NCBI GenBank assembly: GCA_023853785.1
Contig: JAJIRX010000829.1
Location: 248,001-312,000, forward strand
Reading direction: 5' to 3'
DNA: 64,000 bases
Source: Psilocybe azurescens
Lineage: Eukaryota > Basidiomycota > Agaricomycetes > Agaricales > Agrocybaceae
Positions 12,690-59,370 of this stretch are shown one piece after another. Every line of letters begins with the position of its first letter. Position 1 is the stretch's first letter. The notes below the pieces were generated by a model. That model was not told where the DNA came from, ran no database searches, and worked only from the letters and a program-made list of their open reading frames with translations. The position numbers and the translations under genes are program-made.

Positions 12690-13084
12690 GAAGCGAACGA
12701 AAAACGAAACTGCTGTTCAAATCAAAAGGCAACAAATGAAAAATTAGTCAATACCCAGCCTACTGCTCGGCCTTCAGGAAGGCACAATCAATGCATATGA
12801 CAAGTCATCGGGTGGTTAAATCCTTGAATCAGAAAAACACTAAACATCCGATAGCACGCGTACGCAAATTTTGACAGAAATCGATCAAACCCTCCTTAAG
12901 ACCATGTACCCTGTATGCAGAAAGAGATATATTAGGGCTACGGAGTTGTGGAGAAGCTAGGTCAGAGGATACTTATTATTCGGCCCAGCTTTTAACTATA
13001 TATCCGAGACAAAATACAAGGGCATGGAACCAGCGGGCGTAGAAAGGATCAGAAAAGTGTGGCTTCGAACATGCGTCACTTAGC

Positions 13085-13339
13085 ATGATTGACTCGAAAG
13101 TGTGGGAGAGTCTTAATCCCAAGGCTGATGTGACTCGGTTATACTCTCAGGCAAATAACCCAGGGAATTTAAGGGAGCTATATAGCGACGCGGAAAGTAT
13201 GATGTCGACACCCTCGGGCCTGGACAGGACCACACAGCCCACCCGTATCCTGTCAGAATCAAATATCAACATCTTCTCCGGCGGAGTACTCAATGACCTC
13301 TTTATGGAATCGAGTATGTGGACGTATGAGCCAGGCTAG
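13085..13339 (+). CDS. Possible small ORF X, R1 copy 1 (84 codons)
   Basis: Open frame starting MIDSKVWESLNPKADVT. Related open frames start at 20141 and 49359 in the other R1 blocks, with similar first 40 codons and divergent ends. Retained openness in three copies hints at coding, but the ends differ, no intron partner was found, and the frames may be chance survivors in a young repeat. No function can be proposed. Confidence 0.25.
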   Translation: MIDSKVWESLNPKADVTRLYSQANNPGNLRELYSDAESMMSTPSGLDRTTQPTRILSESNINIFSGGVLNDLFMESSMWTYEPG

Positions 13340-13506
13340 AAAAGTTCCACGGTTATGTGGTTATGTGAGTCTATCACGAGTCGTATCCTAGATATACCAG
13401 TACGTCGCAGAACTTCAAGGACTAGCTTTTGTAATCTGGTTGTCTTCCTCGCTTAACCGTGAGGTGCATGTCGTAATGTCGTAACTTCGGCGAAACATTT
13501 TCATGA

Positions 13507-14614
13507 TTAAGCGCCCACACCTAACTCTTTACATTCTTCACAATAGGACAGAAAAGGCTCGCTGGACTTCGGGGGTAAAGAATATTCTCAAATGTTTTTC
13601 CCACTCCCTGTACAAAAAATGTCATATCGATATCATTCTTTTTTACACTGGTCTGGAATGGAGGCAGAAAAGTACAATTATCGTTGGCAGATAACGGGCC
13701 CCTGTGACTATCGACCCTTCTTGTATTAACCTTCCAGAACAGGAAAATTCACAGTGCAAAAACATATGGGTCCCCATCGATTCAGATAATCAGTCGTCAT
13801 CAGTCTTCACGCTGTCTATAGTACCTGCTGTCAGAACTCACATGCTATGTTGGTTCTCACACTTGTTCCCGGTAAGCTTAAGTCGCCCTTGTCCTCGGTT
13901 TTGAGAGCACAATCGCGATGGCTAGCAGTCCATGACATACTAAGTGCTCCCGTGGATAAGCCGCAGTACTTCCTCTCCTTACATCTTCGCAAGGTTTCTG
14001 TTGCACCAGATCTAGTGTCTTGTGAACTGTCCAACGTTGAACGGAGGGAATATTTATCGATCCGAATCCGTGCGAGGTCCTGTACCATTTCAAATATAAA
14101 TTCGTCCACAACATGCGGAGTGGAGGAATTCCGAGAGTAATGTGTGACAGCTTAGATCCCCTTTCGCATATTTGCACAGGTTCTATTGAAGGTTCGGAGA
14201 TTGAAATGGCGACACAAAGATAATCGATGAACAATCGATCAACCTCTACCCTCGCACACAACTCCACAGCTTCCGTGCTCAAGGCACATTTCTTCTTTTG
14301 CTCATGCACGAGGCGTTTCTGGTGAGCGGAAAAAATATTTGTTTGTGGACCATGATAGTCATCAATTGTACAATTGTCACAATCCCAATCCTGAACTATA
14401 GAATTGCTCTTGATATATAAGATCTCGAAAGCCACTCGGCAAATAGCCGGACCTCGAGACCTTGAACCCTGTGCTTAAAGTTGAGCTTACGCGTTTCTTA
14501 ATGAGAAAAAACAGCTCAAGATTGTGTTCGACTACGTTTTGGCCTCTCCGTTGCGTGGTTAATCTAGACGCTGCCCGAAAACCGAAAATCGCGTTTTCCC
14601 CAACGGGCGCTTAA
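13507..14614. mobile_element. TTAA-bounded segment with GCGCCC inverted ends
   Basis: Left end TTAAGCGCCC (13507-13516) and right end GGGCGCTTAA (14605-14614) are perfect inverted copies. Equivalent bounded segments lie at 49826-50949, 20723-21756 (left end altered) and, with TTAT in place of TTAA, at about 39466-40288. TTAA target duplications are typical of piggyBac-type elements, so a non-autonomous element is one reading; a conserved promoter element is another. No transposase frame is present. Confidence 0.4.
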
Positions 14615-15086: not shown

Positions 15087-15967
15087 TCAACATTTATTCA
15101 CGAACGATGCCCTACCCTGTCTGTGAATCTACATTAGCAAGCTCTTCGTAATCTGATTATTCCATAGATCCCGGATCTTACTACCGTCCAGCTGACTGGA
15201 AAATATGGAGTCGCCGGCTCATACGAAGACCAAAATGGGAACAGGATCCCGGCAGACATGCCCAAGGGAAATACAGTCACCCTCACCAAGTACGAAGCCT
15301 ACCATCTTCGAACTCGCACCTCCGTAAGTGCTTAACATGTTGACCTTTGAGAACGTGCTGATCAATGTGAGCAGACCGCTGGCCCAGGCTCGGCTGATAT
15401 AGAAGATCGCTACAGCTTCAAAGGGCCCTTTCCTGAGGGGAAGTGGTCAACCTGGGAGGTTTCTGGGGATTTGCATCACGTACAATCCCGCATGCTTGGA
15501 TATCTCTCACTCGGGGAGGGGCTCCTCTAGTGGGAGCGTACTTCCGGGTTTGGTCCTCTTCTCTTTTCATATGACATTAGAATTTATGCGAATCTACTTG
15601 TACAGTCCAACACCATTGTTTTCCTTCTTAAACCCTTCGGGTATAAGACAACCTCAGTTGCAGGCGGCTGGAGGGACCTGAAGATTGGGGATCGAATCAA
15701 ATTAGCCAGCACGGCAGTGTCCGAACGCGCGGTATGTGTTCCTGCATATATATCTGACATCCGAACTGAAATACGTACTCTTTTGTCCTTCCCTGGGTAT
15801 GGCAGCACCTACCTATTAGCAACAATGAGCCAAATGAAAGAAATATAGCCCTCGCAACGTACAAATTTCATTATATGGAAGAGAAGGAAGTAATACCAAT
15901 CTGGAAATCCAATGGCTATCACTCAGAGAAAGAAAGTTTCAAAGTCGTCAAAATCGCGACGAAATAG
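15087..15967 (+). pseudogene. Y3: Y-family gene, divergent and frameshifted
   Basis: Exons can be aligned with Y2 in number and order: 15168-15323 (52 codons, ends RTRTS at a GTAAGT donor like TRVS in Y2), a third exon from 15375, a fourth around 15569-15732 (LKIGDRIKLAS, matching LKILNLGDCVKIRS of Y2) and a last one 15806-15967 ending in the WKSNGYHS segment. Exon 3 needs one extra G in the GGGG run near 15523 to avoid an early TAG. The first exon is uncertain: an ATG at 15107 is followed by only about 30 bases before the next acceptor. It is the most divergent plus-strand member. Product and function unknown. Confidence 0.55.
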
Positions 15968-16692: not shown

Positions 16693-18332
16693 ATGGAGGT
16701 AAGAGATAATGTTAATATTCTACTACAATCTATATTTTATCTCTTTTTCAGTCCTATTCAATTCCCATCTCTTTCAACTTCGCACCAGGCGATGGTTCAT
16801 ATGAGAATACTGAACGGTTTGCCTTCTGGGCCTCTCCCAACACGATGCAATGGTTCAAAACACGTGGATATATCCTTTATCAACGCAGTTTGGATGAATC
16901 AGGCGATTCATCTTTTCCAAGCATACCTTCAAAAGTCGAGTTTGCGGAAGCCGAGTATCCTTACGCCTGTTACGATACAGAGACCGTGGAACTGCCAGAA
17001 ACGCCGGTACCGCTTCGCGCTTGGGATATGACCGTAAGCTTTTCTGTGCCATACATAAACACTACCTCAGAGTAATCCAATTGGTTTTCTGACAGGGAAA
17101 GGTTGGTTATGCCCAGGATTCACTAGGCAGACACGTTGCAATCAAAATCGTGCCCAAGGAGACAGACGAATACCGTATCCTACAGTTTTTAAACCAGCAG
17201 AAACTAGAAACGCTAAAAGAGAACTGTGTTATTCCAGTTCTAGAACTATTGCCCAATGAAGACTTTTGGTTTGCGGTAATGCCTCGGTAAGCCCCATATG
17301 TTTCGATCTGGTCCTTAAGATATTCATCGATTCTTCATTTTTGAAGATGGGCTGCTTACATCGACAATCCCGAACCTCAATATCTTCATGAAATTGTCAC
17401 TATGATACATTCTCTGTTGAAGGTGTGATCGCCAAAATCGCCATAGGTATACTTCCTGTAGTTTCTAATGAGTGTGCCCCACAGGGAATGAACTATTTAC
17501 ATGAACATAACATTGTCCATGGGGTTTGTCTGTGTTCGGTGGCGTTTGAACTCTTGCTTACATACATTTCTAGGATATCAACGAAGGAAATTTTTTGGTG
17601 AATCATATCAGTGATATGCATTGGCGCTGCACCAAGCGCAGTCGTTTACGGGCAAAGAAAAGTTTGTTGTATGCACTGTTCGACTTTGACCTTTCTATCA
17701 TGGCACCGCCGAACATAGACAAGAAGGACTTCCGACTCCCGGCATACAAATCATGGGGCTCGTTCAACGTCAGCAATGATACGGCTGCAGGAGAACATGA
17801 CTACAATCCATTTATACTTGACGTGGGCAGCATGGGCGTCTACTTATGCCAGAATTATCAAGTCAGTTTTCCATTTTGACTCTTGTTCTGTTCGTAGGCT
17901 GGCTTAATAAACGTCGGTCACTAGCATATGACAGATCTCCTCCCAATACTTGCTCCTCTTCTCGATATGATGACATGTTGGGATCTTCGCCGTCGATTTA
18001 CTGCATCAGAAGCCCTTCAGTTTCTTGAAGATCGTATGGCAGAGATATCAGAAGCGGACCTTGCTTCTAAAATAGTCCTGACGAAGCCCAGAGACCCTTA
18101 TAAAAAGTATAACGAGTGCGATAGATGGGAGAACCTGTCTCCAGAATTTGTGGAAAGATGGCAAGCATATAGGGAGACGCCTCTACCTTGGCACATCCCA
18201 CTCTTACGACGAGTCTGCAAGACTCAACTCGGCACACTTATTGTTCTGCGAACACGAGCATTTGTGTTCAAATTCACTTCCCTTCCGCGCCGACTTCACA
18301 GATGGCTTGTTCCTGCCAAGATTGCACTCTAA
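16693..18332 (+). CDS. K2: intact kinase-like protein, 429 residues
   Basis: Seven exons with GT-AG introns: 16693-16698 (ATG GAG only), 16752-17033, 17096-17286, 17347-17422, 17485-17523, 17574-17861, 17925-18332. All phases agree and there is no internal stop. Kinase marks in order: HVAIK (lysine of subdomain II), then an acidic ETDEYR helix, LHEHNIVHG joined by splicing to DINEGN (catalytic loop HGD...N), LFDFDLS in the place of DFG, LDVGSMG (subdomain IX aspartate) and RRFTASEAL near the C-terminal lobe end. The loop lacks the lysine two residues after the catalytic aspartate (DIN instead of DLK), so activity is uncertain. The N-terminal 90 residues (FAFWASPNTMQWFKTRGY) are a family-specific domain. 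No membrane segment. It follows Y3. Confidence 0.8.
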
Positions 18333-18682: not shown

Positions 18683-19260
18683 GAAACATGACTACAATCC
18701 ATTTACACTTGACGTGGGCAGCATGGGCGTCTACTTATGTAAGAATTATCAGGTCAGTTTTCTATTTTTGACTCTTATTCTGTTCGTAAGCTTAATAAAC
18801 TTTGATCTCTAGCATATGACAGATCTCCTCCCAATACTTGCTCCTCTTCTCGATATGATGACATGTTGGGATCTTCGCCGTCGATTTACTGCATCAGAAG
18901 CCCTCCATTTTCTTGAAGATCGTATGGCAGAGCTATCAGAGGTGGACCTTACTTCTAAAATAATCCTGACGAAGCCCAGAGACCCTTATAAAAAGTATAA
19001 CGAGTGTGATAGATGGGAGAACCTATCTCCAGAATTTGTGGAAAGATGGCAAGCGTATAGGGAGAAACCTCTACCTTTGCACGTCCTACTCTTACGCCGA
19101 ATCTGCAAGACTCAACGCGGTGCACTTATTGTTCTGCGAACACGAGAATTTGTGTTCAAATTCGTTTCCCTTCCGCGCCGACTTCACAGATGGCTTGTCC
19201 ATGCCAAGATTACACTCTGATATTGTCCGTAGCTCTACCGCACACAGCTATACTTGTTAG
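18683..19260 (+). pseudogene. K2': partial tandem copy of the K2 3' end
   Basis: Contains the end of the sixth exon (from GAAACATGACTAC), the following intron and a complete open last exon (about 18813-19220, 136 codons) closely similar to that of K2. There is no upstream part, so it cannot encode the kinase. Downstream of its stop the sequence matches the 3' flank of K9 (59371-59640), not that of K2, so this is a chimera of the two gene types. Confidence 0.8.
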
Positions 19261-19718
19261 ATGCTCTTTGACTATATTTTGACCTTGCTCCAACGATACA
19301 TCCGCTTTTGTTGTCCGCTTTTCCTTTCATTTGGTTATTTAATATGTTGCTTACTTAAATCATGCACACCCGCTACTCAGTCCTGTATGTCATTTGAGAT
19401 CCATACTCTATACAACGAGAAGCATCTTGTCCCAAGCCAGGTCCGTGACCTTATTTAACATGATGAAGGTATTATTATTTAATAGAACGCCATCGTTGAT
19501 AGATGGCTCAGTCTTCTCCCCACCATTAACGGTGACGGAGGGACTCCGGCCTAACTTTTGGATTGGTTCAAGGTCACATTTATCACTGCGACGCATAACC
19601 GAAACGTGTGCGTGAGTTCTGACTAAGAACCAGTTCACACCAACACCCCGAACCGGTCAGGGCTCAAGCTTTAACGTCTTCACTGGCTCGTTGTCCATTG
19701 TGCATCGCTTTTGATAAC

Positions 19719-19829
19719 ATGAAGGTAAGGTTGTGCCCTCAGTGCGCGTCGTAGGCACAATGACGTTACTCTCGCAGTCCCCTGTGATCAAAATCACCTT
19801 TCCATTTGAACCGGGCGTCATATAGTACT
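19719..19829 (+). pseudogene. Solo kinase head: first exon, intron and start of second exon
   Basis: ATGAAG (19719-19724) followed by GTAAGG, an intron of 53 bases and the first 50 bases of the second exon (SPVIKITFPFEPGVI), then TAG. The 5' flank (CTCAAGCTTTA... near 19660) resembles that of K5 near 29103. It is a truncated K gene abutting the R1 block of module U1. Confidence 0.75.
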
Positions 19830-20140
19830 TACTACTAGTCGTGTCAGGTCGCGTCCACCTTGCGTCCACTGCCGTCTACCTGGATAGTTCAATGTGTGAC
19901 AAAGCTCTCGGAGTAGTACTTGTTTCGCTAAATGTCATCACTATGACAGGTTGAAGAGAACGAAAATGCAACTGCTGTTTAAATCAAAAGGCAATGAATG
20001 AAAAATTGGTGGAAACCCAGCCCACAGCTCGGCGTTCTGGAAGGTACAATATATGCTTATGGCAAGTCACCGGGGGTGGTTTAATCTTTGTATCAGAAAA
20101 ACATCAAACATCAGATAGCTTCGAAAACGCATCATTTAAC

Positions 20141-20416
20141 ATGATTGACTCGAAACTGTGGGAGAGTCTCAATCCAAAGGCTGATGTGACTGAGGTACAT
20201 CCCCAGACAAATAACCCAGAGAATTTAAGGGACCTATACCGCGACGTGGAAAGTATGATGTCGACACCCTTGGGCCTGGGTAGGACTACACGCACTATAT
20301 TGGTATTCGGACTCATTACGCAGCCCACCGGTATCCTGTTGGATTCCCGTGTCAATATCTTCTCCGGCGGAGTGTTCAGTAGGCTAATCAAATGCCAAAG
20401 TAGTATGTGGATATAA
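20141..20416 (+). CDS. Possible small ORF X, R1 copy 2
   Basis: Frame starting MIDSKLWESLNPKADVT, homologous to those at 13085 and 49359. The same frame is open upstream to 19994, so the start is not certain. The C-terminal half differs from the other copies. Coding status is unproven. Confidence 0.25.
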   Translation: MIDSKLWESLNPKADVTEVHPQTNNPENLRDLYRDVESMMSTPLGLGRTTRTILVFGLITQPTGILLDSRVNIFSGGVFSRLIKCQSSMWI

Positions 20417-20722
20417 GTCCATCATGAATCATATTCTGGATGTTCGAGTAGGTCGCAGAACTTCAAGGGCTGGTGGGGGAGTCCCGAGCCCTACAAACGG
20501 CTCTGAGGCGAGGCATAGTGCTCTCGGAAGGATTGTGAAATGGTGTAGGAAAATGTGCTATGCTACGTCGTGAAGACTACTCTAAGGTGCTTCGGACTCT
20601 GCTCTATAGTCCGCCAGCACAGCCACACCGGCCTTTGTTATTTTGGTGTCTTCCTCGCCTACACATAGCTGACTGTGACGTTCTTGTCGTAATGTCGTAC
20701 CTTCGGCGAAACATTCTCATGG

Positions 20723-21756
20723 TTAAGTGTCAACATCTAACTCTTCGCATTCTTTACAACAGGAGAGGACAAGACTTGCTGGACTTTTGGCGGTAAAGAA
20801 TATCTTTAACACTCCGTGAGCCGAAGGCGTCATATCAGTCTTTTTACATTGGTCTGGAATGGAGTACAATCATCGATGCATCTTTGACAGACACCGGAAA
20901 CGTTCGGCCCTTCTTGTGTTAACCTTTTGAAAAAGAAATTTCACAGTGCAAGAACATATGGGTCCCCGTCAATTCAGATTATCAGTCATTATATTGCCTT
21001 CAAGCTCCCTTGTCTTCGGTTTTGACGACACAATTGCGAAGACTAGAAGCCCATGACATACGAAGTACTCCCGTGGATATGCCGCAGTACTCCCCCTTCT
21101 CATACCTCGCTCTCAAGGCTTCTGTCGTGCCTGATTTAGTGCCCTGTGATTCACCAAAAGTTCACAGTCCTCAACTGGGTGAATACTCAATGGAAGTCAT
21201 ATCTTACCGATCCGAATTCGCCTGAGGTATCGTCATATTCCAAATATACACCCACCCACAACATGCGGAGTGGAAGTTTTGAGAGTAATGTGCGGCAAAA
21301 GAGAGCCCATTTTGCGTAACTGAACATCTGCACAGGTTCTGTCAAAGGCTTGAGATTGAAATAGAGATAAAGATAAATCAATCCATCAACCTTGACCCTC
21401 TCTCTCACACACGCACACACAACTCCACGGCGGCCGCACCCAAAGTGTGCAATATCATTATTCTTTCGTCCATGCACGAGGCGTCTCTCATCAAAAAAAA
21501 AATTGCCTGGGGACGTGGACAATCGCCAGGCTCCATCAATTTCACATCATTCTTGACGCATCCTTAGAAGTTGCCTTGAACAATGTGGCCATTAGATTTT
21601 TCCAAAAACTTCAGCGCAGCTGCCTGCCTGATGGTCATTGCTCACTATCTCTGATGCAAGATAAAGCCCCGGCGGGCCGCTTGGGTGTGGTGCAGTGGTA
21701 CGGACCCGGGTAACATGACGTGTAATAGCTGGAATACGTGTCCAACGGGCGCTTAA
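20723..21756. mobile_element. TTAA-bounded segment, left end altered
   Basis: Right end GGGCGCTTAA at 21747-21756 is identical to the other copies; the left end reads TTAAGTGTCA at 20723 where others have TTAAGCGCCC. Length about 1.03 kb. The right end lies about 550 bases upstream of the Y1 start, the same spacing as in the Y2 module. Confidence 0.35.
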
Positions 21757-22306: not shown

Positions 22307-23247
22307 ATGTCGTCGTCTCTACAAACTTCTTCTGTCCTGGAATCCGAACCTTTACAAGTAAGTTGCTATGTGTGGCTCCATATGTCGCCTGGTCATCAAA
22401 ACTTATCTTTGGTAGGTAAATAAAACTCGAGCCATCCTCGCCGATAATGTCGAGATAGATGGATGGTACAATGGCGAAATGGGCAAAACTAAACACACTC
22501 TCCGCGCTGGAAGTGAGGTGATTATCTTCGCATCCAAGGAAAAAGGACGACCACTAGAGTCTCCGTAAGTTTTGACTGTTGCATATCCTTTCAACTTACT
22601 CATTTAATCAAATTTTGATTATTCTTAAAAGACGGGTGCACATGGACCCGAGGTAGAGTACGAATATGCTTTAACGGCTGAATTGCCGGATAAGGCATGG
22701 AAAACTTTCCTGGGTGTTGGTCTTGCCATCGAAGGACAACGAATACCACACAAAGATCTCTCCCAGGTCCCGACGAGTCATAGGACAAAGTCAAGTTCAA
22801 AGAATCTGGGGAGATGAGAAGAGATGCATTTTGGAAGGTTTGTTCTCTTTGTTTCCTTCCATCTGCAATGCTAAATCCAATGGACATGAAACAGGCGAAC
22901 CAACTTGCTTACATTCGAAAGGAGATTGTGGTCAAGGTCGGAAGAAATTCACCAACAGGTATTAAGACTTTAGATTTAGGAGACTGCGTTAGGATATGCT
23001 CTGGTGCAACTACCATCAGAAATGTAAATGTCGTTCGACCATGTTCCCACTTGAGACATTACTGATAAACTTTGTGTTTTGCCGATGACAGGGAGGGAAA
23101 GTCCCCGAAGAGCCGACAGACCATAACTTCGAATTGGCTGGATACTCTTTTCAATTCACAGTGCCTACAGTTCACACTGCTACATGGAAATCCAACATCT
23201 ATCATAGTGCTCGTATCTTCAAAGAAACTTTCATTGTCGAGGACTGA
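22307..23247 (+). pseudogene. Y1: Y-family gene with two one-base deletions
   Basis: Close paralogue of Y2 with the same five exons: 22307-22357, 22416-22564, 22632-22837, 22895-23023, 23092-23247. Exon 2 has AAAAA (22540-22544) where Y2 has six A, and exon 3 has GGGG (22808-22811) where Y2 has five G; each drops a base and breaks the frame. Start codon, splice sites, the fourth and fifth exons (LAYIRKEIVVKVGRNSPTG; WKSNIYHSARIF) and the stop are intact. If the two runs are assembly errors the gene is functional. It is followed by K3. Confidence 0.7.
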
Positions 23248-25636: not shown

Positions 25637-26088
25637 CGCCCCACTCCATTGTTTACTATCTCTTGTTCTGATCTCGCTATCCTCGTCAGCTTGTATGTTG
25701 TGGATTCCTGGTTTTTGGAGTTACGGTTATACTTTCTCTCCTCTATTGGCGTTTAAATCAGCCTGTTTTCGTTGGATACTTATTGTTTTCGTCCGTTCTA
25801 GATTATATAGCCATAAATACATATTTCCACCTTGTCAAGTATTTTACTCCGTTTAAACACCGTTGAAATTTAGTCTGCTTCACTCTTCTTTATCCAAACA
25901 ATTGTGTGTACCGAATATGGATTGGTTGTAGAGTATATAGGCAACTGTACACCATTACACACATCCCCAATTACTACCGAGATTTATTCGATACCAAGTC
26001 AAATTCAAGTCGATTCCCACCTGACGAATCTTAGACCCCATAACAGCGGCCGCCTCGAACGGTGAGTGCAACTCGTGTTGGGTAGCTC

Positions 26089-27710
26089 ATGGAACCTCAG
26101 GTAATAAGCCTCTCTCACTGTCCTCACTGGTCTCCTTGCAATGAGTTCACAAGTTGCTTTCCATTAGATAACTTTCCCCTTCGTCGCTTTGGATAAGTCG
26201 CTTTCCATCCAGATAGCTTTCCCCTCAGGCTTCGTCGCTGGGGAAGACGGCGATCTCACAGAGCGTAAGGCCTTTTGGAACTCCCCAAATACTGTTCAAT
26301 GGTTCAAAAAACATGGCTACATGCTATATCAAAATGTTGGCGACTCGTACATAACCCGTCCAACATATCCTTCTGAAGTTGCATGTACCAAACCCGAATA
26401 TCCAAACGCTTACTATGACCCAAGTGATACAGAAGTCCAGGAGATCACTGTGAGCCCTTCCACTGTCTCATATAAATTAGTTTCTAAGGCCTTTACCTAT
26501 CTCAGGGGAAAGTTGCGTTTGCCCAAGATTCTCTCAACCAACATGTTGCAATCAAAATTGTGCGAGCGGAGACAGATGAATATCGCATCCTGCAATTTTT
26601 AAGTCAGCAGAAGCTAGAGACCTTGAAGGAGAATTGTATAATCCCAGTTTTAGACCTGTTGCCCGTCGAAGGCTTCTGGTTTGCCGTTATGCCACGGTAT
26701 GTGATCTGAGTAAACCTCGATTCTGTGCACCATATTAAATTTTAAGATGGGGTACTGGGATTATTCATCCCTCTATGCAACGTATGCATGAAGTCATCTT
26801 CTTGATGCATTCAATGTTGAAGGTGCGGTTCTTAACTGCCACATGCAATCTGGCTAACCAATACCTATGTAGGCTTTGGCTTATCTACATAAACACAACA
26901 TTGTCCATCATGTCTGTTCTTTTTTCTTTTGTTGGTTGTGTTTATTTACGTTCTCTTATAGGACATCGCTCTGAAGAATTTCTTGGTAAATCATTTCGCC
27001 TACCATAATATCTTCTCCGTGCCTCAAAATAATACACGGAGTCGTTTACGATCGAGGAAGTGTATCTCATATGCAATCATGGATTTTGACCTTTCTATCA
27101 TGCTTCCCCAGAGGCTGATAGAAATGCGTTTCGGCGCCCCTATTACGAGTCATGGGGTACCTTCAATCTGGTCGACGACACGGCTGCGGGTGAATTCGAA
27201 TACAACCCCTTTGTCTTTGATGTTGGTGTTATGGGTGCTCTGATGTGCAAACGCTTTCAGGTCGGTATTTCACTTGTGGCATGTCATTCTATATCTGACT
27301 CTTTTATAGCACATGTCGCGGGATCTTCCTATGTTGGCACCACTTCTCGACAAAATGACTACTTGGGACCTCAATAGTCGATTCACGGCCTCAGAAGCCC
27401 TTCAATTCTTCGAAGAGCGTATGGCAGAGCTCTCGGATGAACAGCTGCAAGTGATTTTTGGGATGAACGTCTGAGAATCCCGTATAATGAATACGATCGA
27501 TGGGAAGGCTTACCCATTTGCTTTGTGGAGAGGTGGAAAGCATATCGAGTTGCACCCCTGCCTTGGCACATGCGATTTCTTCGTTCATTGTGCCAGAGAC
27601 GGTACTTTTATTATATCGTGCCAAAGACTAGGATGTTTTTCTACAGACTTTTGTCTCCTCCACGTTGGTTCTTTAGTACGTGGATTACGCCATCAAAAAT
27701 TTTCGTTTAA
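26089..27710 (+). pseudogene. K4: kinase-like gene of the MEPQ subtype, two frameshifts
   Basis: Exons 26089-26100 (ATG GAA CCT CAG), 26213-26449, 26506-26696, 26747-26822, 26873-26911, 26962-27260, 27310-27710. Two one-base deletions are inferred: CCCC at 27106-27109 (K1 keeps CCCCC) and TTTTT at 27455-27459. The catalytic loop is HHDIALKN: the usual HGD glycine is histidine. Just before exon 2 a 30-base stretch is repeated (ATAACTTTCCCCTTCGTCGC and ATAGCTTTCCCC...TTCGTCGC), giving two candidate acceptors. An alternative intronless start at 26189 exists. Copies of its 5' part are K1 (inverted) and K8. Confidence 0.7.
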
Positions 27711-29162: not shown

Positions 29163-30794
29163 ATGGAGGTAAGATTGCTCCCTCAATGTACATCGTATAC
29201 ACAGTGATGTTACACGACCTGTCGTAGTCCCCTGTAATCAAAATCACCTTTCCATTCGAACGAGGCGAGATATGCGACTACAGCGAGCGATTCGTTTTCT
29301 GGGACTCTCCCGACACAATTCAATGGTTCAAAGATCGAGGCTACACCTTATATCAGCGCATGTGGGATGATTCGGAAGCAACGGATGCGTGTTTTCCGAC
29401 CTTTCCTTCGGACGTCGAGTTCGTCGAAGCCCAATATCCCTATGCTTGTTATGATTTAGATTCCATGGATTGCCCCGGTTCGTGTCCAAAGGCACCCCTT
29501 CGTGCTTGGGAAGCAACTGTAAGTAATTTTGATATCTTACCAAGTGGACTTTTGTCATCGGCTTGACGACGTCAACAGGGCAAAGTCATGTTTGCTCAGG
29601 ATTCCCTCAAACGACATGTTGCGATCAAACTAGTGCGAGCCGACACAGACGAGTATCGCGTGCTGCGATATCTGAGCCAGCAAAGTGTAGATATACTGAA
29701 AGAAAATTGTATTATCCCCGTTCTAGATCTACTACCTATTGAAAGATTTTGGTTTGCAGTGATGCCGAGGTAAGCCCTTCGACCGATGCTGGACAGCTTT
29801 AGAAATAGCCTGACAAAGTCGTAAACTCTTTGAAGATAGGGATCGAACATCCTCACACCCAGTCCTCGTTTTTTATTTGAAGTTGTCGATATCATACATT
29901 CGATGTTGAAGGTACTACGCTGGATTAGACTCACCCACAACGATTTTACTGACGCAGGAAAACAGGGACTGAACTATCTCCATAGCCACAATATTGCCCA
30001 TGGGGTCAGTCTTTCATTCCTAAACCAATCTAACCGAATATTTGTTCACGTCGGTCTTCGTAGGACATTAATGATGAAAATGTTCTAGTGAACCATTTCT
30101 CTGACATGTATCTGTTAGATCATCGGCGTTCCGATCTACGCCGCAACAAGTCTCTGTCCTATGCGCTCTTTGATTTTGACTTTTCAGTCATGCTGGACCC
30201 CGAGGCTAATAAAAAGAATTCCGGCTTCCCTATCGAAGATCTTGGGGACCTTCAATAAGAGCTTTGACACGGCCGCTGGAGAATACGACTACAATCCGTT
30301 TGTCTTTGATGTGGGTGCCATGGGTGTCTCCCTTTGTTATTGCTATCAGGTGAGCTACTTCTATTGTTATTGGTCGCCCATGGATGACACTATGCTACCA
30401 GCATCTGGCAAAAGACCTTCCCTTGCTAGCACCCCTGCTCGACATGATGACTACTTGGGATCTTGATCGTCGGTTCACTGCATCTGAAGCCCTTCTATTT
30501 TTTGAAGAACGTCTTTCCGAAGTGCCAGCGGAAGATCTCCAGGTCACAGTCCCCAACCCTTTCTCTGACCAGCATTACTTGATATGCAACAGATGGGCAA
30601 ATGTCCCTCCCGAATTTGGGGAAAGGTGGAAAGCTTACAGGACGCCACCTATCCCTTGGCGTCTTAAAACGCTTCGTTTCATATACCGACACTCGATAAA
30701 CCGTCATATCCTGCCGAAGATACGTTTGTTTTTCCTTCGCCTTCCGTCGATGCCCTGCCAGTTCCCCAAATGGATCTTCCCTTCCAGAATCTAA
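29163..30794 (+). pseudogene. K5: kinase-like gene with a stop and a frameshift
   Basis: Exons 29163-29168 (ATG GAG), 29228-29518, 29579-29769, 29836-29911, 29966-30004, 30063-30349, 30402-30794. In exon 4 the conserved tryptophan codon TGG right after the acceptor is TAG (29837-29839). In exon 6 the conserved AAAAAGG reads AAAAAG near 30216, one base short, at the same place where K3 and K7 lack an A. HVAIK, HGDINDEN, DFDFS and RRFTASEAL are present. The substitution makes it a genuine pseudogene candidate irrespective of homopolymer errors. Confidence 0.75.
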
Positions 30795-31054
30795 CGCCCA
30801 CGCCCCACCCTTTGCTATCTCTTGCTCTGATCTCATTTTCTTTGTGTGTTGCCTAACCTGTATTCCATCAGTAACACCCCATACAGCCGTAGTTGTAACG
30901 TGATCTTCACCGATATAGAAAACGGCGCCTTTTGTAAAATGTCAAAAAGACATCAAGAACAGACATCAAAAAAAAAAACTGAAAATGGCCGGAAAACACG
31001 ACCGTGAAATCCCGTAATATGTAAATAAAAACTAAGTAAAATCATCGTCCTCCA
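30795..31054. other. Convergent 3' intergenic region
   Basis: Short spacer between K5 (plus) and the carrier gene (minus), containing an A-rich run at 30969-30979. No gene seen. Confidence 0.5.
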
Positions 31055-37529: not shown

Positions 37530-37930
37530 GTCACAGTTGATGAATTGATTATCTTTATCGCCCTTTCAATCTTCAGACTATTGATAGAACCGGTACAAAT
37601 GTACAATTACGCAAAATGGGCTCTTCTTACCACATATTACTCGCAATACTTCCACGCTGTACGCTGTAGGTGGGTGCATAATTGGAATATGATAATACCC
37701 AGGGGTATTTGGGTCGGTAAGACAGGGGCTTCCATTGTATATTGACCAGTTGAAATTTTTTGGTGAATAACAAGGCACTAAATCAGGCACGATAAAAGCT
37801 TTGCCAGTGAGGTGTGAGAAGGGAGAGTACTGAAGCTTATCCACAGGAATATTTAATATATTATAAACTTCTAGCCTTCAAAATTGTGCTCTCAAAACGA
37901 GGACAAGGGAGAGTTAGGACGCATGCTAAA
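37530..37930 (-). repeat. Solo internal fragment of R1, inverted
   Basis: The reverse complement matches the middle of the R1 block (for example 50220-50520), with the stretches GTGGATAAGC, CAGTACTC and GCCTGATTTAGTGCCTTGT. The frame reading PQYSPFSHL...VPDLVPC is open here and in the copies at 21010, 50228 and 55296. It lacks the terminal GGGCGCTTAA sequences. Confidence 0.7.
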
Positions 37931-48766: not shown

Positions 48767-49358
48767 TGTAAAGGTAGAAAAGGCGGTAGTTTCGAGTTGG
48801 CTACGGTCGACGGTGGAGAGCGACCAAACGATTTTCGTGACGTTGAAATCACCCGGGACTTTCCGTCAGATTGACGGCCCGGACATGCCGATGGTCGTGG
48901 CTCTTGAATGTGTCTTCAGCGCGTCGCGTCCACCTAGCGTCCACCAAACGTTGACTCGGGTCTACCTGGGGATTCAATCCCTTTAGAAGCTCTGAGACTA
49001 GTATCTCGTTCGCTAAATGGCGTCACTGTGACAGACAACGGCTGAAGAGAACCGAAAACGACACTGCGGTTCAAATCGAATGAAAAATTGGTGGATACCC
49101 AGCCTACTGCTCGGCGTTCAGGAAGGGATCATCAATGCTTATGACAAGTCACCGGGTAGTTTAATCTTTGAATCAGAAAAATATCAGACGTCCGATAGCA
49201 CGTGTACGCAAATTTGACAGAAATCGATCAAACCTCCTTAAGACCATGTACCCTGCATGCAAAAGGCGATATATCAAGGTTACGGAGTTGCGGAGAAAAT
49301 ATGTCAGCGGACGTAGATTAGATCAGAACATTGTGGCTTCGAATACGCGCCATTTAAC

Positions 49359-49604
49359 ATGATTCACTTGAAAGTATGGGAGGGTCTCAACCCTAAGACT
49401 GATGTGACTCGGTTATATTCCCAAGCAAATAACCCAGGGAATTCAAGGGAGCTATACTGCGACATGGAGAATATGATGGATGTCGACACCCTCGGGCCTG
49501 GGCAGGACCACACGCACTATATCGGTATTCGGAATCGTTACATAGCCCACCCGTATCCTGTCGGAATCCCATGTCAACATCTTCTCCGGCGGAGTACCCA
49601 ATGA
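49359..49604 (+). CDS. Possible small ORF X, R1 copy 3 (81 codons)
   Basis: Frame starting MIHLKVWEGLNPKTDVT, homologous to the frames at 13085 and 20141 over its first half. Coding status is unproven. Confidence 0.25.
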   Translation: MIHLKVWEGLNPKTDVTRLYSQANNPGNSRELYCDMENMMDVDTLGPGQDHTHYIGIRNRYIAHPYPVGIPCQHLLRRSTQ

Positions 49605-49825
49605 CTTTAAATTTGTAGAATCAGCTGTGTGGACGTGTGAGCCAGGCTTTACAAATGCCATGGATATGGCTATTAGAGTCCATCATGAGTCATATTCTGG
49701 ATATACAAGTAGGTCGCAGAACTTCAAGGGCTAGCTTTTGTTATTTTGTTGTCTTTCTCGCCTAAACATAGCTGACTGTTACGTGCATGTCGTAATGTCG
49801 TAACTCCGGCGAAACATTCTCATGA

Positions 49826-50949
49826 TTAAGCGCCCACATCTAACTGTTCGCATTCTTCACAATAAGACAGGACAAGGCTCGCTGGACTTTGGGGGTAAAG
49901 AATATTCTCAAATATCATTCTCACTCCCTGTGCAGAAGGCGTAATATCATTCTTCTTTACACTGATCTGGAATGGAGACAGAGAAAGTACAACCATCTTT
50001 GACAGATAACGGGCCCTGGGGATATTCGGCCCTTCTTGTATCAACCTTTTGAAAAAGGAAAATTCACAGTGCAAGAATGTATGGTCCCTATCAGTTCAGA
50101 CAATCGTTTGTTATCACGGCCTTCAAGCTGTTCATGGTTGCTGCTGTCAAAACCCACATGTTATCTTGGTTCCCACATTTGTTCCCGGTAAGCTTAAGTT
50201 GCCTTTGTCCTCGGTTTTGAGGGCACAATCGCGAAGGCTAGAAGCCCATTACATACGAAGTACTCCCGTGGACATGCCGCAGTACTCCCGCTTCTCACAT
50301 CTCGCTCGTAAAGCTTCTGTCGCGTCTGGTCTAGTGCCTTGTGATTCACCAAGAAGTCCTCAGTCCTCAATTGGGTTAATACTCAATGGAAGGCATATCT
50401 TACCGATCCGAATCCGCTTGAGGTATCGTCATCTTCCAAATATACACCCACCCATAAAATGCGGAGTGGAACTTATGTGAGTCATGTGTGGCGAAAGAGA
50501 GCCCATTTTTCGTAATTGCATATCTGTACAGATTTTGGGAAGGCTAGAGATTGAAATCGCGATAAAAATAATCAATTCATCAACGTTGACACTCACACAG
50601 TTACACACAATCTCACACAATCTCGCAATCTCACAATCCCACAATCACAACTCCACAGCGGCCGCACCCAAAGAAGTACTGAGGGGTCTCCGATTTAAAA
50701 AAAATTTTCTGGGTACGTCGATAATCACGAGTCTCCATCGATTTCCACATCACTCTTGAAACATTCTACTAACCATTAGAAGTTGCTTTGAATAATGTAG
50801 TCATTGGGTCTTTCAGAAACTCTGCCACAGCTGCCCGTCTAATAAATATTGGTCACCATCTCAAGATAAAGTAACGGCTTGGGTATGGTGTATGGAACCG
50901 GGTAACATACCGTGAAACAAGCCGGAAAACTTGTCCAACGGGCGCTTAA
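49826..50949. mobile_element. TTAA-bounded segment with GCGCCC inverted ends
   Basis: Left end TTAAGCGCCC at 49826-49835, right end GGGCGCTTAA at 50940-50949; 1124 bases including both TTAA. The right end lies about 555 bases before the Y2 start. No transposase frame. It may be a non-autonomous TTAA-type element fixed before the module was duplicated. Confidence 0.4.
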
Positions 50950-51503: not shown

Positions 51504-52431
51504 ATGTCGTCGTCTCAACAAGCTTCTTCAGTTCCGGAATCTGAACCCTTGCAAGTAAGTTGTCATATGTGGCTCCATATGTTGCCTAGTTGTCAAAGAC
51601 TCATCTTTGGCAGGTAAATAAAACTCACGCCATCCTTGCCGATAATGTCAATATAGATGGATGGTACCTTGACAAAGCAGAAGTCAAAACTACCCACACA
51701 CTCCATGCTGGAAGTGAGGTGATTATCCTCGCATATAAGGAAAAAAGGACGACCACTAGAGTCTCCGTAAGTTTTGACTGTTATATATCCTTTCAATTTA
51801 CTCATTTAGCAAAGACGGGTGTATATGGCCCAGAGGTGGAATACGAGTATGCTTTAACGGCAGAATTGCCAGAGAAAGCATGGAAAACCTTCCTGGGCGT
51901 TGGTTTTACCATAGAAGAACAACGAATCCCGCACACGGCTCTCTCCTTGATTCCGACGAGTCATAGGACAAAGTCAACCCCAAAGAGTCTGGGGGAGATG
52001 AGGAGAGATGCATTTTGGACGGTTTGTCCTCTCTTTTTACTTCCGTTTGCAATACTAAATCCAATGGATATGAAATAGGAAAACGAATTTGCTTACGTTC
52101 GGAAGGAGATTGCGATCAAGGTCGGAAGAAATTCACCAACAGGTCTTAAGATTTTAAATTTAGGAGACTGCGTTAAGATACGCTCTTCGGCAACTACCAT
52201 CAGAAACGTAAATGTCGTCCGACCATGCTACCACTTGAGACATTACTGATATACTTTGTGTTTTGCCGACGACAGGGAGGAAGGGTCCCTGAAGAGCTGA
52301 CAGATCATAACTTCAACATCGCCGCATATGACTTTCAGTTTACAGAGCCTGAGATTCGCATCCCTACTTGGACATCCTATGTCTATCATACTGCCCGTAT
52401 CTTCGAAGAAACTTTTATTGTCGAGGAATGA
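51504..52431 (+). CDS. Y2: intact Y-family protein, 231 residues
   Basis: Five exons, all phase 0: 51504-51554 (MSSSQQASSVPESEPLQ), 51614-51766, 51815-52021, 52079-52207, 52276-52431. No internal stop. No signal peptide, membrane span or known catalytic motif. Alternating hydrophobic residues in exons 2, 3 and 5 suggest beta structure, for example the segment EYEYALTAEL and the final TSYVYHTARIFEETFIVEE. Lys/Arg-rich loop in exon 4 (YVRKEIAIKVGRNSPTG). It is the reference member of the family; Y1 is nearly the same, Y3, Y4 and Y5 are distant. Placed between an R1 block and kinase-like gene K7, as Y1 is with K3. I do not recognise the family. Confidence 0.7.
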
Positions 52432-52783: not shown

Positions 52784-54429
52784 ATGGGGGTAAGGTTCTG
52801 CCTTCAATAATCATCATATGTACAGTGACTTTACTTTCGTAGTCCCCTGTGATCAAAATCACCTTTCCATTCGAACCAGGCGTCATATATGACAGGAAAG
52901 AACGATTTGCTTTCTGGGACTCTCCTAACACTATCCAATGGTTCAAAGATCGAGGCTACACCCTATACCAGCGCATTTGGGATGACTCCAGAGCCACACA
53001 TACATCTTTTCCAACGTTTCCTCCGGACACTGATCTCGTCTCGAAAAATCAGCTTGTTGAGGCCGAAGGTCCATATGCTTATTATGATCTGGAGACCATG
53101 GACCACTATACGTGCATAAAGGCACCCCTTCGTGCTAGGGAGCCGACTGTGAGCATTCGAAAATCTGCAATCATAATCATGTCCGACATGTGTGCTCAAT
53201 GTGTGCCAGGGGAAAGTTGTGTTTGCTCAGGACTCCCTCAAGCGACATGTTACAATCAAACTTGTGCGAGACGACACAGACGAATATCGCGTTCTGCGAT
53301 ATCTGAACCAGCAAAACCTAGAGATACTGAAAGAAAATTGTGTGATCCCCGTTCTAGAACTGCTACCCATCGAAGGATTTTGGTTTGCAGTGATGCCAAG
53401 GTGAGTCACTCAATCGACAGCTTCTGTTTTAGATTAACAGAGTAACCAACTTGTTGAAGATGGGGAACGGGGATTCACCATCCCAATCCTTTATTTTTGC
53501 ACGATGTTGTTGTTATTATACATTCAATGTTGAAGGTACGCTCAATCTTACGCGAGTACCAGTCATCTCGTAACACAGATCATTAGGGAATGAGCTACCT
53601 TCATGATCATAAAATTGCTCATGGGGTCAGTGTTTCATCTTTTGGTCCAACCGAGCATCCCATTCACATCCCATTTCATAGGACATCAATATTACAAATG
53701 TGCTCGTCAATCATTTTTCCGACACGTATATGGCTAATGAGAAGCGCAAAATTTTACGCCACGAGAGATCTCTATGTTACGCGCTCTTCGACTTCGACTT
53801 TTCCGTCATGCTACCTCCGGAGATCAATAAAAGGAATACCGACTGCCCTATGATAGGTCGTGGGGCAGTTTCAATATAAGTAACGACACATCCGCTGGAG
53901 AATATGACTATGATCCATTTGTCTTCGATGTGGGTGCTATGGGTGTCACGATCTGTCAGTTATATCAGGTTTGTCCTATCTCTTGTTTCCCTTTCTCCCA
54001 ATGCATACTTGAACAATTCTTCACCAGCACCTGGCAGAAGATCTCCCCTTTCTTGCACCCCTCCTCGACATGATGACCACCTGGGATCTCGAACGTCGAT
54101 TCACTGCATTTGAAGCTCTCCAATTTTTTGAAAAGTGCCTTTCCGAAGTATCGGAGGAAAATCTCAGCTTCACAGTTTCTGTTGGTACCCGTATAGTCCA
54201 GCGTTACAACAAATACAATAGATGGGAGAATGTTCCTCCCGAGTTTGCGGAAAGATGGAAGGCATACAAGGCGCCACCTATCCCTTGGCATCTTAAAATG
54301 CTTCGTTTCATCTACCGACACTCGAGAAATGACCATATCCTTCCAATGATACGTTTGTCCTTGTTTCACCTTTCATCGATGCCCTACCGGTTCTACAAAT
54401 GGATTTTCCCTTCTAAAATCACAATCTAA
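52784..54429 (+). pseudogene. K7: kinase-like gene with one frameshift
   Basis: Exons 52784-52789 (ATG GGG), 52843-53148, 53210-53400, 53460-53535, 53587-53625, 53682-53968, 54028-54429. The only defect is AAAA at 53829-53832 in exon 6, one A fewer than K9 and K1-type relatives, which breaks the frame after PPEINKR; K3 has the identical lesion. HVTIK (A to T change in VAIK), LHDHKIAHG spliced to DINITN, FDFDFS, FDVGAMG and RRFTAFEAL are present. If the A run is an assembly error the gene would be complete at about 426 residues. Confidence 0.7.
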
Positions 54430-55118: not shown

Positions 55119-56470
55119 AGGGTCACCATCAATTCAGATAATCAGTTGCCACCATGGCCTTCAAGCTGTCTATAGTAGCTGCTGTCAAAACCCACATGCT
55201 ATGTTGATTCTCACACTTGTTCCCGGTAAGCTTAAGTCGCCCTTGTCAGGACACAATCGCGAAGGCCAGGAGCCCATGACAAACCAAGTACTCCCGTGGA
55301 TAAGCCACAGTACTCCCCCTTCTCACACCTCGCTTGTAAAGCATCTATCGTGCCTGATTTAGTACATTGTGATTCACCAAGAACTTCTCAACTGGTCAAT
55401 ACTCAATGGAAGCCATACCTTACCGATCCGAATCTGCTTGAGGTACTGTCATATACACCAGCCCACCACATGCGGCATGGAAGATTTAAGTATATTGTGT
55501 GGTAAAGGAGAGCCCATTTTGCGTAATTGTACATCTGCACAGGTTCTGTCGAAGACCGGAAATTGAAATCACCATAAAGATAATCAATCTATCAACGTTA
55601 ACTCACACACACATACACCCGCACACATATCCGCAGCGGCCGCACCCGAAGAAGTGAGGGCTCTCCGATCAAAAAAAAATTGTCTGTGGACGTCAACAAT
55701 CACGAGTTGCACGCGTAGCATCTTTTCCCATCAATTCCATATCATTCTTGCACATTCTACTAACCATTAGAAGTTTTCTTGAATAATGTAGTCATTGGAT
55801 CTTCCAGAAACTTCGCCACAGCTGCCCGTCTAATAAATATTGGTCACCATCTCAAGATAAAGTAACGGCTTGGGTATGGTGTATGGAACCGGGTAACATA
55901 CCGTGCAACAAGCCGGAAAACGTGTCTAACGGGCGCTTAAACGCGATATTGCATGTTGCACCTTTGAATCACTATTCTCATCATTAAATCATTACATCAC
56001 AGCGTTTATGGGCTGTCTTGCAATACAGACTCATACGATCTTTAGGCATTTCTTTCTCACCATATGCCCTGGGGGACAATCCTGTTTGTTAGTATGCCGT
56101 GGTTCCACGCAGGACTGCAGTTCTATTATGACTCGAGGAATTTCTCATGCTATATGCCCAGACTGTTTAATTGGAAGCTTACCCTGTCACTGTAAGACAG
56201 CCGTGCTTTTGTCAACTTTGCTCGAAGATCTCTCTAGTCTTTTTCAGTGTCCCTAAGTATGCTATTGACCTCATTACGTTTGCTCGTCACCAGGAATGGA
56301 ATGTGCAAATATAGCTCTCTAAAAGCTCTTCTGAAGGAGTATTAGGATTTCCCATGCTCAACTCATGAGTTTGATTTCAATCTCCGGTGTCACAATCTCT
56401 TTTGCATAAGTACCTGCTTCCAAGGCGATCATCTGCAGTTTCCTGCAACACGCCTTCTTGACCTCAAGTA
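55119..56470 (+). repeat. R1 block, truncated copy in module U4
   Basis: Begins mid-block (matching 50085 onward in U2) at the K8 break, keeps the right TTAA end GGGCGCTTAA (55931-55940) and continues to the Y4 region. The left part with ORF X and the left TTAA end are missing, so the copy was cut by a rearrangement. Confidence 0.75.
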
Positions 56471-56473
56471 ACA

Positions 56474-57180
56474 ACATCGTCGTCTTCATTGAATTTTTGC
56501 CACTGCCCGTAAAATGAGATCTCTGCTCCGATCTAGTCACAGGAACTTTTTTTTTTTTTTAGCGGATGGGTACTCGCGTCACTCTCACAGACGTCGGTGA
56601 TTATTATTTGAATGTAAAGGGCGAAAGAATCGAACACAAACTGAATGATGGCGCCGAAGCCATAATTTGCAAACTTCAATCAAAGAATTGTACGAGAGCC
56701 TCCGTAGGTTTACTGCTATATGTTCTTAACTTTCTCATTGGTTTCTATTTCGAGAAAAGACCGGTTTGCAAGGCCAAGAAATTGAGGAGTACGTGTACGG
56801 GTTCAAGATTAAATTACTTCAGAAGAAACGGGACAACATTGTGGCCAGTGTCAGACAATAAATTGGGGAGTTGTATTTTGTATTCTTGTTTGATTCTTTT
56901 GCTTGACTTTGTTGGCGGTCCATGGCATGAGCACGACATTAACGAGCCCACATCCTTTTTTTCTGTTTATATTATGTTGGAATTTTTTCGGTTTATATTG
57001 CATATCAAAGAATTCTCAAACTTTCAGGCTTGTAATATATACGATAGTCTATTTTCCACACAAGGTCCATTGCCATCAAGTCCATTGGAATTTACTCATA
57101 ATTCCACCAAAAGAAAGAATTTATTTGAAACCTGGTTGGGTGGTTGTCTGGGGAGGGATCAACATACGTCTATAAAGAAC
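56474..57180 (+). pseudogene. Y4: divergent Y-family gene, start codon lost
   Basis: Where Y1 and Y2 have ATGTCGTCGTC, this copy has ATCGTCGTC (about 56475). Exon 2 is 56563-56703 (GTRVTLTDVG...RIEHKLNDGAEAIICKLQ; donor GTAGGT), behind a 14-base T tract. Exon 3 from 56760 (TGLQGQEIEEYVYGFKIK) runs into TAA near 56860. A fourth-exon equivalent is visible around 57028-57174 (ERIYLKPGWVVVWGGINI). The last exon was not found. Probably a pseudogene, yet its exon 2 has the same 47 codons as Y5. Confidence 0.55.
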
Positions 57181-57744
57181 AACGATAGAGGCATGGCACA
57201 CAGAACGTCCTGCCACTCCCTCTTTTCCACGAAACACCTGATATGGGCCTCAGTTGTGAAAACAACTAACACGAGCATTTGCTGATCCGTTGTGTCCTTA
57301 TTAGGCGGTTTTGATCAATTCCGACGCCCTGTGCACTGTGAAAACAATATTTATCCACTAAATACACAAATACAGGAAGGGTTGGTTATATAGAAACATA
57401 CAGCGGCATACTGAGAAGGTGTTGACTCTCCAGCACACTAAGGTAATAAGAAGTCGGTCCGCCATATGAAAATGTACGTACTCGGCCTCTCCCCTGCTTG
57501 CCGGACTTGTTCTTGTCGCATCTGGTGTCAGTACATCAGCTAAACATTTTAAAAATTGTGACAAAAGAAAGGGATACATATGTTGAACAAATATTGTTAA
57601 CATTACATATTACATTATTACTATTTACGTTTCCGAACGGTCACGGTTGACCATATATAACGTGACTGTGTTTATAGAAGGTAACAGGGTACCCTGCGTG
57701 CGCCGTGAGGTCATTTTGTAAGGTGCTGCTTTATATTTGGCGGC
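57181..57744. other. Intergenic before K9
   Basis: No supported gene. The 57-codon to 81-codon frames here lack paralogues. Confidence 0.45.
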
Positions 57745-59370
57745 ATGGAGGTAAGGTCGATCCCTCTTTATATGCCGTACGAAACATAATGCTACTTTCG
57801 CAGACCTCTGTGATCAAAATCACCTTTCCATTCGAACGAGGCGAGATCTACGACAACAGCGAGCGATTCGCTTTTTGGGACTCCCCCTATACAATCCAGT
57901 GGTTCAAAGATCGAGGCTACACCCTTTATCAGCGTATTTGGGATGAGTCGGAAGCAATGGACACATCTTTTCCAGTCCATCCTTCGGAAGTCGAGTTTGT
58001 CGAAGCTGAATATCCATATGCTTGCTATGATTTGGATACCATGGATTGTTCAAAAGCACCGCTTCGTGCTCGGGAGGTAACAGTAAGCATTTGCAATATC
58101 TTTTCAAGTGGACTTTTATCAACGCTCGGCCGGTGTCGTCAGGGAAAAGTCATGTTTGCTCAGGATTTCCTCAAACGACACGTTGCAATCAAACTTGTGC
58201 AAGACGACACAGACGAGTATCGCGTACTGCGATATCTAAGCCAGCAAAACTTAGATATACTGAAAGAGAATTGTATTATCCCCATCCTAGACCTAATACC
58301 TGTCGAAGGATTTTGGTTTGCAGTGATGCCAAGGCAAGTCCTTCAAACGACAGCTTTGGAATTAGCCTCACAAAGCCGTAAACTCTTTGAAGATGGGGAT
58401 CAAGCATCTACTACCCCAGACCCCGTTTTTTGTTTGAGGCTGTCGATATTATACATTCGAGGCTGAAGGTATGGGGAGTTGTACGCACGTCCTTACCAAC
58501 AATCTTGCTGACACAGGAACATAGGGGCTGAGCTATCTTCATGACCACAATATTGCCCATGGGGTCAGTGTTTTATGCGTGTGCCAATCTAACCGGATAT
58601 CTGTTCACGTCCCTTTTCGTAGGACATTAATGATACAAATGTTCTAGTTAACCATTTCTCTGACATGTATTTGTTGGATGACCGGCGTACAGATCTACGC
58701 AGCAGCAAGTCCTTATCTTACGCGCTCTTTGATTTTGACTTCTCTACTATACTGGCACCCGAGGCCAATAAAAAGGAATTCCGACTTCCTTATCGAAGAT
58801 CTTGGGGGACCTTCAATGTGAGCTATGACACGGCCGCTGGAGAATATGACTACAATCCATTTGTTTTTGATGTGGGTGCCATGGGTGTCTCCCTCTGTAG
58901 TTGGCATCAGGTGGGTTTTGTCTGCTGTTGTCGTTTGCCAGTGGATGATACTTGAACAAACATACTACTAGCATCTAGCAAAAGATCTTCCTTTATTAGC
59001 ACCCCTGCTCGACATGATGACTACTTGGGATCTTGATTGTCGGTTCACTGCATCTGAAGCCCTTCGATTTTTTGAAGAACGTCTTTCCGAAGTACCAGAG
59101 GAAGACCTCCAAATTAATGTTTCCAATGATATCCCTGGCGAATACTACATGATATGTAACAGATGGGAAAATATCCCTCCCGATTTTGCGGAAAGGTGGA
59201 AAGCTTACAAGACGCCACCTATCCCATGGCATTTGAAGACGCTTCGTTTCATAAACGAACATTCGATAAATTACAACATCATACCGCAGACTCGTTTGTT
59301 CTTCTTTCGTCTTTCATCGATGCCCCGCCGATTCTACCGAAGGATATGTCCTCCCAAAATCACACTCTGA
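57745..59370 (+). CDS. K9: intact kinase-like protein, 425 residues
   Basis: Exons 57745-57750 (ATG GAG), 57804-58082, 58143-58333, 58393-58468, 58525-58563, 58623-58910, 58972-59370; phases close and no stop interrupts. The third intron starts with GC (GCAAGT) instead of GT, at the place where all relatives have GT. Motifs: RHVAIK, TDEYRVLRYL, LHDHNIAHG spliced to DINDTN, FDFDFST, FDVGAMG, TASEALRFFEERL. Exon 6 keeps AAAAAGG, so it shows the ancestral state of the site that is broken in K3, K5 and K7. Loop HGDIN lacks the usual lysine, and DFG is DFD; it may bind without phosphorylating, or use a different mechanism. Confidence 0.8.

Follow-up and report, generated by a model that had tools for sequence, protein, structure and literature searches.

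Tandem gene clusters that evolve by birth and death with gene conversion are a general kind of locus, and the Spok drive genes, spore killers of Podospora, include a kinase-like domain. Here, we describe a locus that can be compared with both, a 64,000-nucleotide stretch of the Psilocybe azurescens genome (contig JAJIRX010000829.1; hereafter the window) in which an upstream block (R1), a small orphan gene (Y) and an AgaK1-like kinase gene (K) recur in the same order. It shares with birth-and-death clusters its tandem copies, its fragments and the discordant divergence of neighbouring parts; it differs in that the homogenised-looking block is mainly the upstream part, with diverged genes behind it. 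The likeness to Spok, drawn by description with a locus known here from sequence alone, lies in the repeated copies and the kinase-like domain, and the difference is that Y and K are separate genes.

AgaK1 is the closest kinase family. In Coprinopsis cinerea and Laccaria bicolor it is expanded, and it was not found in the pathogens compared, according to the excerpted text of PMC4215621. Expression reports, as excerpted, concern other genes in other species than the K genes described here: the Coprinopsis AgaK1 gene CC1G_09799 was down 5.9- and 7.1-fold with E. coli and B. subtilis (PMC4704728), and a Sanghuangporus AgaK1 homologue was among the genes down-regulated in co-culture (PMC13214342). 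The K genes resemble this family through a sequence match to a Pholiota molesta protein so named, an assignment that rests on the depositor's name, and differ from it in being clustered beside orphan Y genes and in their HGD and DFD motifs. FunK1 (PF17667) is likewise an expanded kinase-like family in fungi; the K gene K16 scored 10.6 bits against it, below the Pfam cut-off of 24.1.

Order and divergence of R1, Y and K

Self-blastn and gene models confirmed that the order R1, Y, K recurs on one strand at four places, as an earlier note on this DNA had described. Self-blastn placed R1 blocks at 12680-14228, 19848-21488, 48923-50576 and 55120 to about 56485 (truncated), plus an inverted fragment at 37515-37911. 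Behind R1, a Y-like gene followed by a kinase-like one was found on the + strand at all four places: Y1 with K16, Y2 with K24 (from about 24046), Y5 with K52 (from about 52852) and the Y4 remnant (about 56563-56858) with K57. The gap between Y and K was about 0.4-0.9 kb in each case. The parts are as follows.

12680..14330, + strand: R1 copy 1, alignable to the R1 of copy 3 until about 14330, then at background identity; looks non-coding
15107..15967, + strand: Y1, distant Y member; one frameshift in the assembly relative to Y5
16693..18329, + strand: K16, AgaK1-like kinase of 429 amino acids, 7 exons, intact
19848..21488, + strand: R1 copy 2, from self-blastn and the divergence comparison
22307..23247, + strand: Y2, 5 exons as in Y5; two frameshifts in the assembly, not shown by the P. 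cyanescens protein P0002
24046..25633, + strand: K24, two frameshifts in the assembly, not shown by protein P0005
37515..37911, - strand: inverted R1 fragment (3' core), from self-blastn and the genome DNA search
48923..50640, + strand: R1 copy 3, from self-blastn, the genome DNA search and the divergence comparison
51504..52431, + strand: Y5, 231 amino acids, intact; exons 51504-51554, 51614-51766, 51815-52021, 52079-52207 and 52276-52431
52852..54426, + strand: K52, one frameshift in the assembly, in a codon where K24 is shifted too
55120..55640, + strand: R1 copy 4, truncated, starting at the 55119/55120 junction and homologous to copy 3 as far as about 56485
56563..56858, + strand: Y4 remnant that retains exons 2 and 3; start and exons 4-5 lost
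57745..59367, + strand: K57, no frameshift or stop; one GC-AG intron (58334-58392)

Comparison in 200-base windows showed copies 2 and 3 to be collinear over about 6 kb, at 62-95% identity throughout, the pattern expected from a single segmental duplication. Copies 1 and 4, by contrast, are mosaic: R1, joined in copy 4 by the sequence ahead of Y, has diverged far less than Y and K. Identity of copy 4 to copy 3 was 73-95% as far as roughly the Y start codon, 40-59% across Y and the Y-K spacer, and 62-86% in K. For copy 1 against copy 3 it was 82-89% over 49101-50300, fell to background beyond about 50700, and was 57-73% across most of K.

The p-distances gave the same picture part by part. Between copies 2 and 3 they were 0.165-0.184 for R1 (core 0.165), 0.187 upstream of Y, 0.130 in Y introns, 0.225 in the Y-K spacer, 0.073 in K introns and 0.134 downstream of K. 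Between copies 3 and 4, the R1 core (0.185) and the sequence upstream of Y (0.178) were far closer than the K introns (0.360); K had a synonymous divergence (dS) of 0.82, and the Y codons were only distantly alike. Between copies 1 and 3, the values were 0.262 for the R1 core, 0.147 for the R1 5' part and 0.537 for K introns, with K dS saturated. Fisher tests of R1 against K introns gave 2.6e-4 for copies 2-3 (R1 more diverged), 2.0e-7 for copies 3-4 (R1 less) and 4.6e-37 for copies 1-3 (R1 less). Because the ratio of R1 to K-intron divergence spans from more than 2 to about 0.5 or less, a slow or a fast R1 cannot account for all pairs.

A midpoint-rooted tree that holds only K relatives separated two groups. 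One (100/100) comprises K16, K59, g60k and P. cubensis P0032; the other (99/97) comprises K24, K52, K29, K57 and P. cubensis P0009 and P0021. Since both contain P. cubensis members, the groups separated before the split from that species. K24/K52 and K29/K57 would also have parted before it, as judged from the fork at which P0021 joins K29 and K57 (93/81 only). By comparison with the split between the K groups, the R1 blocks ahead of K16, K52 and K57 appear far more recent. Finding a little-diverged R1 ahead of old, diverged genes would mean that R1 was homogenised, or relocated, without the genes that follow it.

These results bear unequally on the proposal in the earlier note. That there was more than one duplication event was borne out by the differing divergence of the copies. 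Repeated duplication of R1, Y and K as a single module was not: copies 2 and 3 alone are collinear end to end, with uneven divergence even there, and in copies 1 and 4 R1 has diverged far less than the Y and K that follow it. Inheritance of the three parts together fits copies 2 and 3, the only pair in which R1, Y and K are of roughly equal age, and does not fit copies 1 and 4, whose parts differ in age.

R1 itself was searched with the copy 3 block as a DNA query against the 70.4-Mb, 937-contig assembly, and was found at five places, all within the window, with its 3' core alignable at all five. Its 3' end lies 777-864 bases ahead of the Y start codon in copies 1-3 and about equally far ahead of the former Y start codon site in copy 4. 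R1 looks non-coding: in three pairwise comparisons no coding sign was found, 17 of 77 gap runs being multiples of three with no clear three-base rhythm by eye, and indels were frequent and of all lengths. No Rfam family exceeded its cut-off in the window, and the R1 covariation term was unfavourable (+2.0 kcal/mol; 8 of 88 pairs compensatory). Given the gap pattern, the Rfam and covariation results and the restriction to five places, R1 as a gene, a structured RNA or a dispersed transposon was unsupported. The inverted R1 fragment lies about 0.7 kb ahead of the likely start of an SRPK-like kinase (by eye) on the - strand (35410-37911), which differs from K and matched PF00069 in one piece at 28.9 bits, below cut-off.

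The K and Y families and their surroundings

The window holds nine full-length K genes rather than the four of the recurring order, eight of them on the + strand and one running past the window edge, together with two fragments. Those outside the four pairs are listed here.

18684..19217, + strand: 3' fragment of a K16-like gene, from alignment to K
19657..19840, + strand: 5' fragment of a K gene directly ahead of the R1 of copy 2; exon-2 start by eye
26195..27701, + strand: K26, no R1 or Y found ahead; two frameshifts
29237..30791, + strand: K29, no R1 or Y found ahead; one stop and two frameshifts
40531..42082, - strand: K41, no frameshift or stop; no Y found ahead
59962..62360, + strand: K59, sister of K16; one frameshift and an intron insert of about 0.8 kb
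63440..64000, + strand: K63, no frameshift or stop; runs beyond the window edge

Across the genome, at least 110 K matches were grouped by hand into at least 27 loci with several match rows and 5 with a single one. By contig, the former numbered at least 17 on the contig of the window, 4 on C214 and 2 each on C695, C730 and C600; 11 of the 27 lie in the window. No Y was detected at 23 of the 27.

K16 exceeded the cut-offs for PF00069 (33.2 bits; cut-off 31.7) and PF07714 (29 bits; cut-off 23.1). It was 45% identical over 91% of its length to P0031 of Pholiota molesta, named other/AgaK1 protein kinase by the depositor (E 1.2e-96), and differed by one residue from P. cyanescens P0003; other proteins of that P. 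cyanescens set mapped to the window at about 95-100% per exon, which places this DNA in P. cyanescens or in a species very near it. A word-based search listed 82 K homologues, all under names of mushroom-forming fungi, in 20 other genera. All 16 K copies inspected retain the catalytic Lys, Glu, HxD Asp and DFD Asp; 15 of them also have the loop Asn, which the remaining copy lacks next to a frameshift. HGD replaces HRD in 12 of the 16 and DFD replaces DFG in all. The K genes thus probably belong to an AgaK1-like kinase family whose intact copies are probably active kinases.

The Y family is much narrower. Y5, with five exons and GT-AG introns throughout, differed by one residue from P. cyanescens P0001; the reading of Y2 agreed with P0002, and the Y1 model agreed with an annotated 209-residue protein, P0085, of another P. 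cyanescens set. Y1 was 28% identical to Y2 and Y5 by alignment. Spliced-alignment scores against Y5 were weak for Y1 (87) and Y4 (65); 20 shuffles (10 per region) reached at most 37, and two Y-free stretches scored 38 and 36. Genome protein searches recovered Y5 and Y2 with Y5 as query and Y1 with P0085. Y4 was missed by both and shown by local alignment alone, so equally diverged Y remnants elsewhere could escape detection. Among about 5.8 billion annotated proteins, three Y proteins were found, all from P. cyanescens, and no homologue outside that species, in a search that needs shared five-residue words and could miss distant relatives.

No domain could be assigned to Y. None of the Y proteins, Y5 included, matched Pfam over cut-off. 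A TIR match of Y5 scored 11.9 bits (cut-off 21.3, E 0.2), and with E values as high as 1 admitted, a match came from a single Y protein out of three. A first impression by eye of an FHA-like or other known domain was rejected on the Pfam result and on a PDB sequence search with one match at E 1.1. An internal repeat was also rejected, its score being reached by 68 to 469 of 500 shuffles in five comparisons. No obvious signal peptide was seen by eye. Structure prediction gave no usable model for Y5 or Y1 (mean predicted local distance difference test scores of 30.5 and 34.3). Between Y2 and Y5, nonsynonymous divergence (dN) was 0.141 and dS 0.39, a dN/dS of 0.36. This low dN relative to dS since the duplication marks Y as a genuine gene, one that encodes a small and probably intracellular protein kept by purifying selection.

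Selection was estimated by the Nei-Gojobori method for 18 pairs, of which 7 with dS of at least 1.8 or infinite were left out and 11 with dS below 1 were used. Over these 11 unsaturated Y and K pairs, dN/dS ranged from 0.21 to 0.42, with 0.35 for K24/K52, 0.23 for K29/K57 and 0.22 for K16/K59. By this measure, purifying selection has acted on both families since their duplications.

A frameshift or stop was present in 14 of 20 aligned K loci and absent from 6. The five frameshifts in Y1, Y2 and K24 together were not seen in P0085, P0002 and P0005 and, by eye, sit in single-base runs; predicted proteins can mask a frameshift behind an intron, so this comparison is not proof. The shift common to K24 and K52 could be an error that recurs in one particular run or, equally, an old change that both copies inherited. 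K29 may be truly broken, its stop having arisen by base substitution. The CVT25 locus tags of the P. cyanescens protein set presumably belong to an Illumina MiSeq genome. A P. cyanescens Illumina MiSeq assembly was annotated with Maker2, according to the excerpted text of PMC6121855. Many of the frameshifts in K and Y copies are probably assembly error or strain difference, and pseudogene calls on this assembly need care; counting the frameshifted copies as pseudogenes is doubtful, since the five shifts compared are unseen in the other protein set and lie in single-base runs.

Several further features touch the K genes. The K59 insert (60739-61560) has 20-base terminal inverted repeats that are 85% complementary and gave 84 match rows in the genome from the best 40 of 125 candidates. 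These rows, at least 84, show it to be dispersed in the genome; most likely it is a non-autonomous DNA transposon. At the left end of the window (67-2650), the K24/K26 stretch recurs in inverted orientation (compared with 25498-27130 and 30994-32266), 86-91% identical; this copy skips K29 and is joined to a copy of a mitochondrial carrier-like gene (by eye). P0083, a protein of 725 amino acids from the other protein set, resembles - strand frames at about 2600-5700 joined to a K gene start, and is possibly a fused gene model. Overlapping open frames cross a repeat-rich stretch at 5058-5680. Elsewhere, 32763-34932 and 42476-44607 form a duplicated segment, 84% identical, carrying a thiopurine-methyltransferase-like gene; a piece of the second copy scored 42.4 bits against PF05724.

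Explanations of the shared order

We consider it likely that the locus is a birth-and-death cluster of AgaK1-like kinases with Y ahead of four K genes, in which copies 1 and 4 are mosaic and the adjacency of Y and K is mainly the product of local shuffling. R1 blocks would have recombined with one another by ectopic gene conversion or by unequal crossing-over. Such recombination would have homogenised R1, placing similar upstream sequence before already diverged genes, and exchange between R1 blocks would be the simplest cause of the pattern. Between copies 2 and 3, where K is less diverged than R1, further conversion may have occurred in K. Y would then stand next to K mainly because both were caught in the same shuffling. 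If the frameshifts are real, there are more decaying genes, and birth-and-death would fit better still. Several points weigh against this explanation. Conversion was not directly observed, since every copy compared as DNA comes from this one genome. The Fisher tests count sites as independent. R1 is not one even block (5' 0.147 and 3' 0.262 between copies 1 and 3). The K tree has a midpoint root, and the split of K24/K52 from K29/K57 is dated by a moderately supported fork. K is the next gene downstream on the same strand for all four Y genes, and constraint on R1 could explain part of its low divergence.

That last point leads to an R1 that is a functional non-coding element, for example a regulatory region for the gene behind it, conserved by selection. 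The core alignable at all five places and the location ahead of Y common to the copies fit such an element; frequent indels of all lengths, the unfavourable covariation and an R1 that exceeds K introns in divergence between copies 2 and 3, contrary to constraint, make it quite improbable. Duplication of R1-Y-K repeatedly as one unit, the model of the earlier note, fits the collinear copies 2 and 3 and is contradicted by the disagreeing ages of the parts in copies 1 and 4; we regard it as very improbable.

A functional pair, in which Y as sensor or effector is regulated by K in self/non-self recognition, defence or drive and selection holds the two together, is favoured by the closely spaced, same-strand arrangement of all four Y genes, by the purifying selection on both families after duplication, and by a Y family that diverges fast (Y1 at 28% identity to Y2 and Y5) and, within the reach of the searches, belongs to one lineage. 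Most K loci, however, have no detected Y, K occurs in 20 other genera and Y in none by word-based searches, and no Y domain points to such a role. K is therefore largely found apart from Y, within reach of these searches, which is the pattern that the earlier note had set against its own proposal. From 12.6 kb on, moreover, hardly any + strand gene other than K and Y was recognised, short of a full gene prediction, so that K is the expected neighbour of Y, and copies 2 and 3 count as one event. Adjacency thus lends little support to joint action, real frameshifts would fit a pair less well, and we consider a functional pair unlikely. More specifically, Y might be a lineage-specific recognition or killer protein and K its dedicated regulator, with the R1-Y upstream block recopied onto old Y-K loci; this seems to us very doubtful, and if true, it would combine a fixed expression programme with diversified coding sequences. 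A role for Y and K in recognition, defence or drive, raised in the earlier note, has no support in these data.

Y is an uncharacterised family that is kept by selection although no relative was detected outside one mushroom species, and it lies beside an expanded kinase family. Collectively, the locus indicates that conserved gene order can mislead: the same order of R1, Y and K occurs four times, and in two of them the upstream block is not of the same age as the genes that follow.

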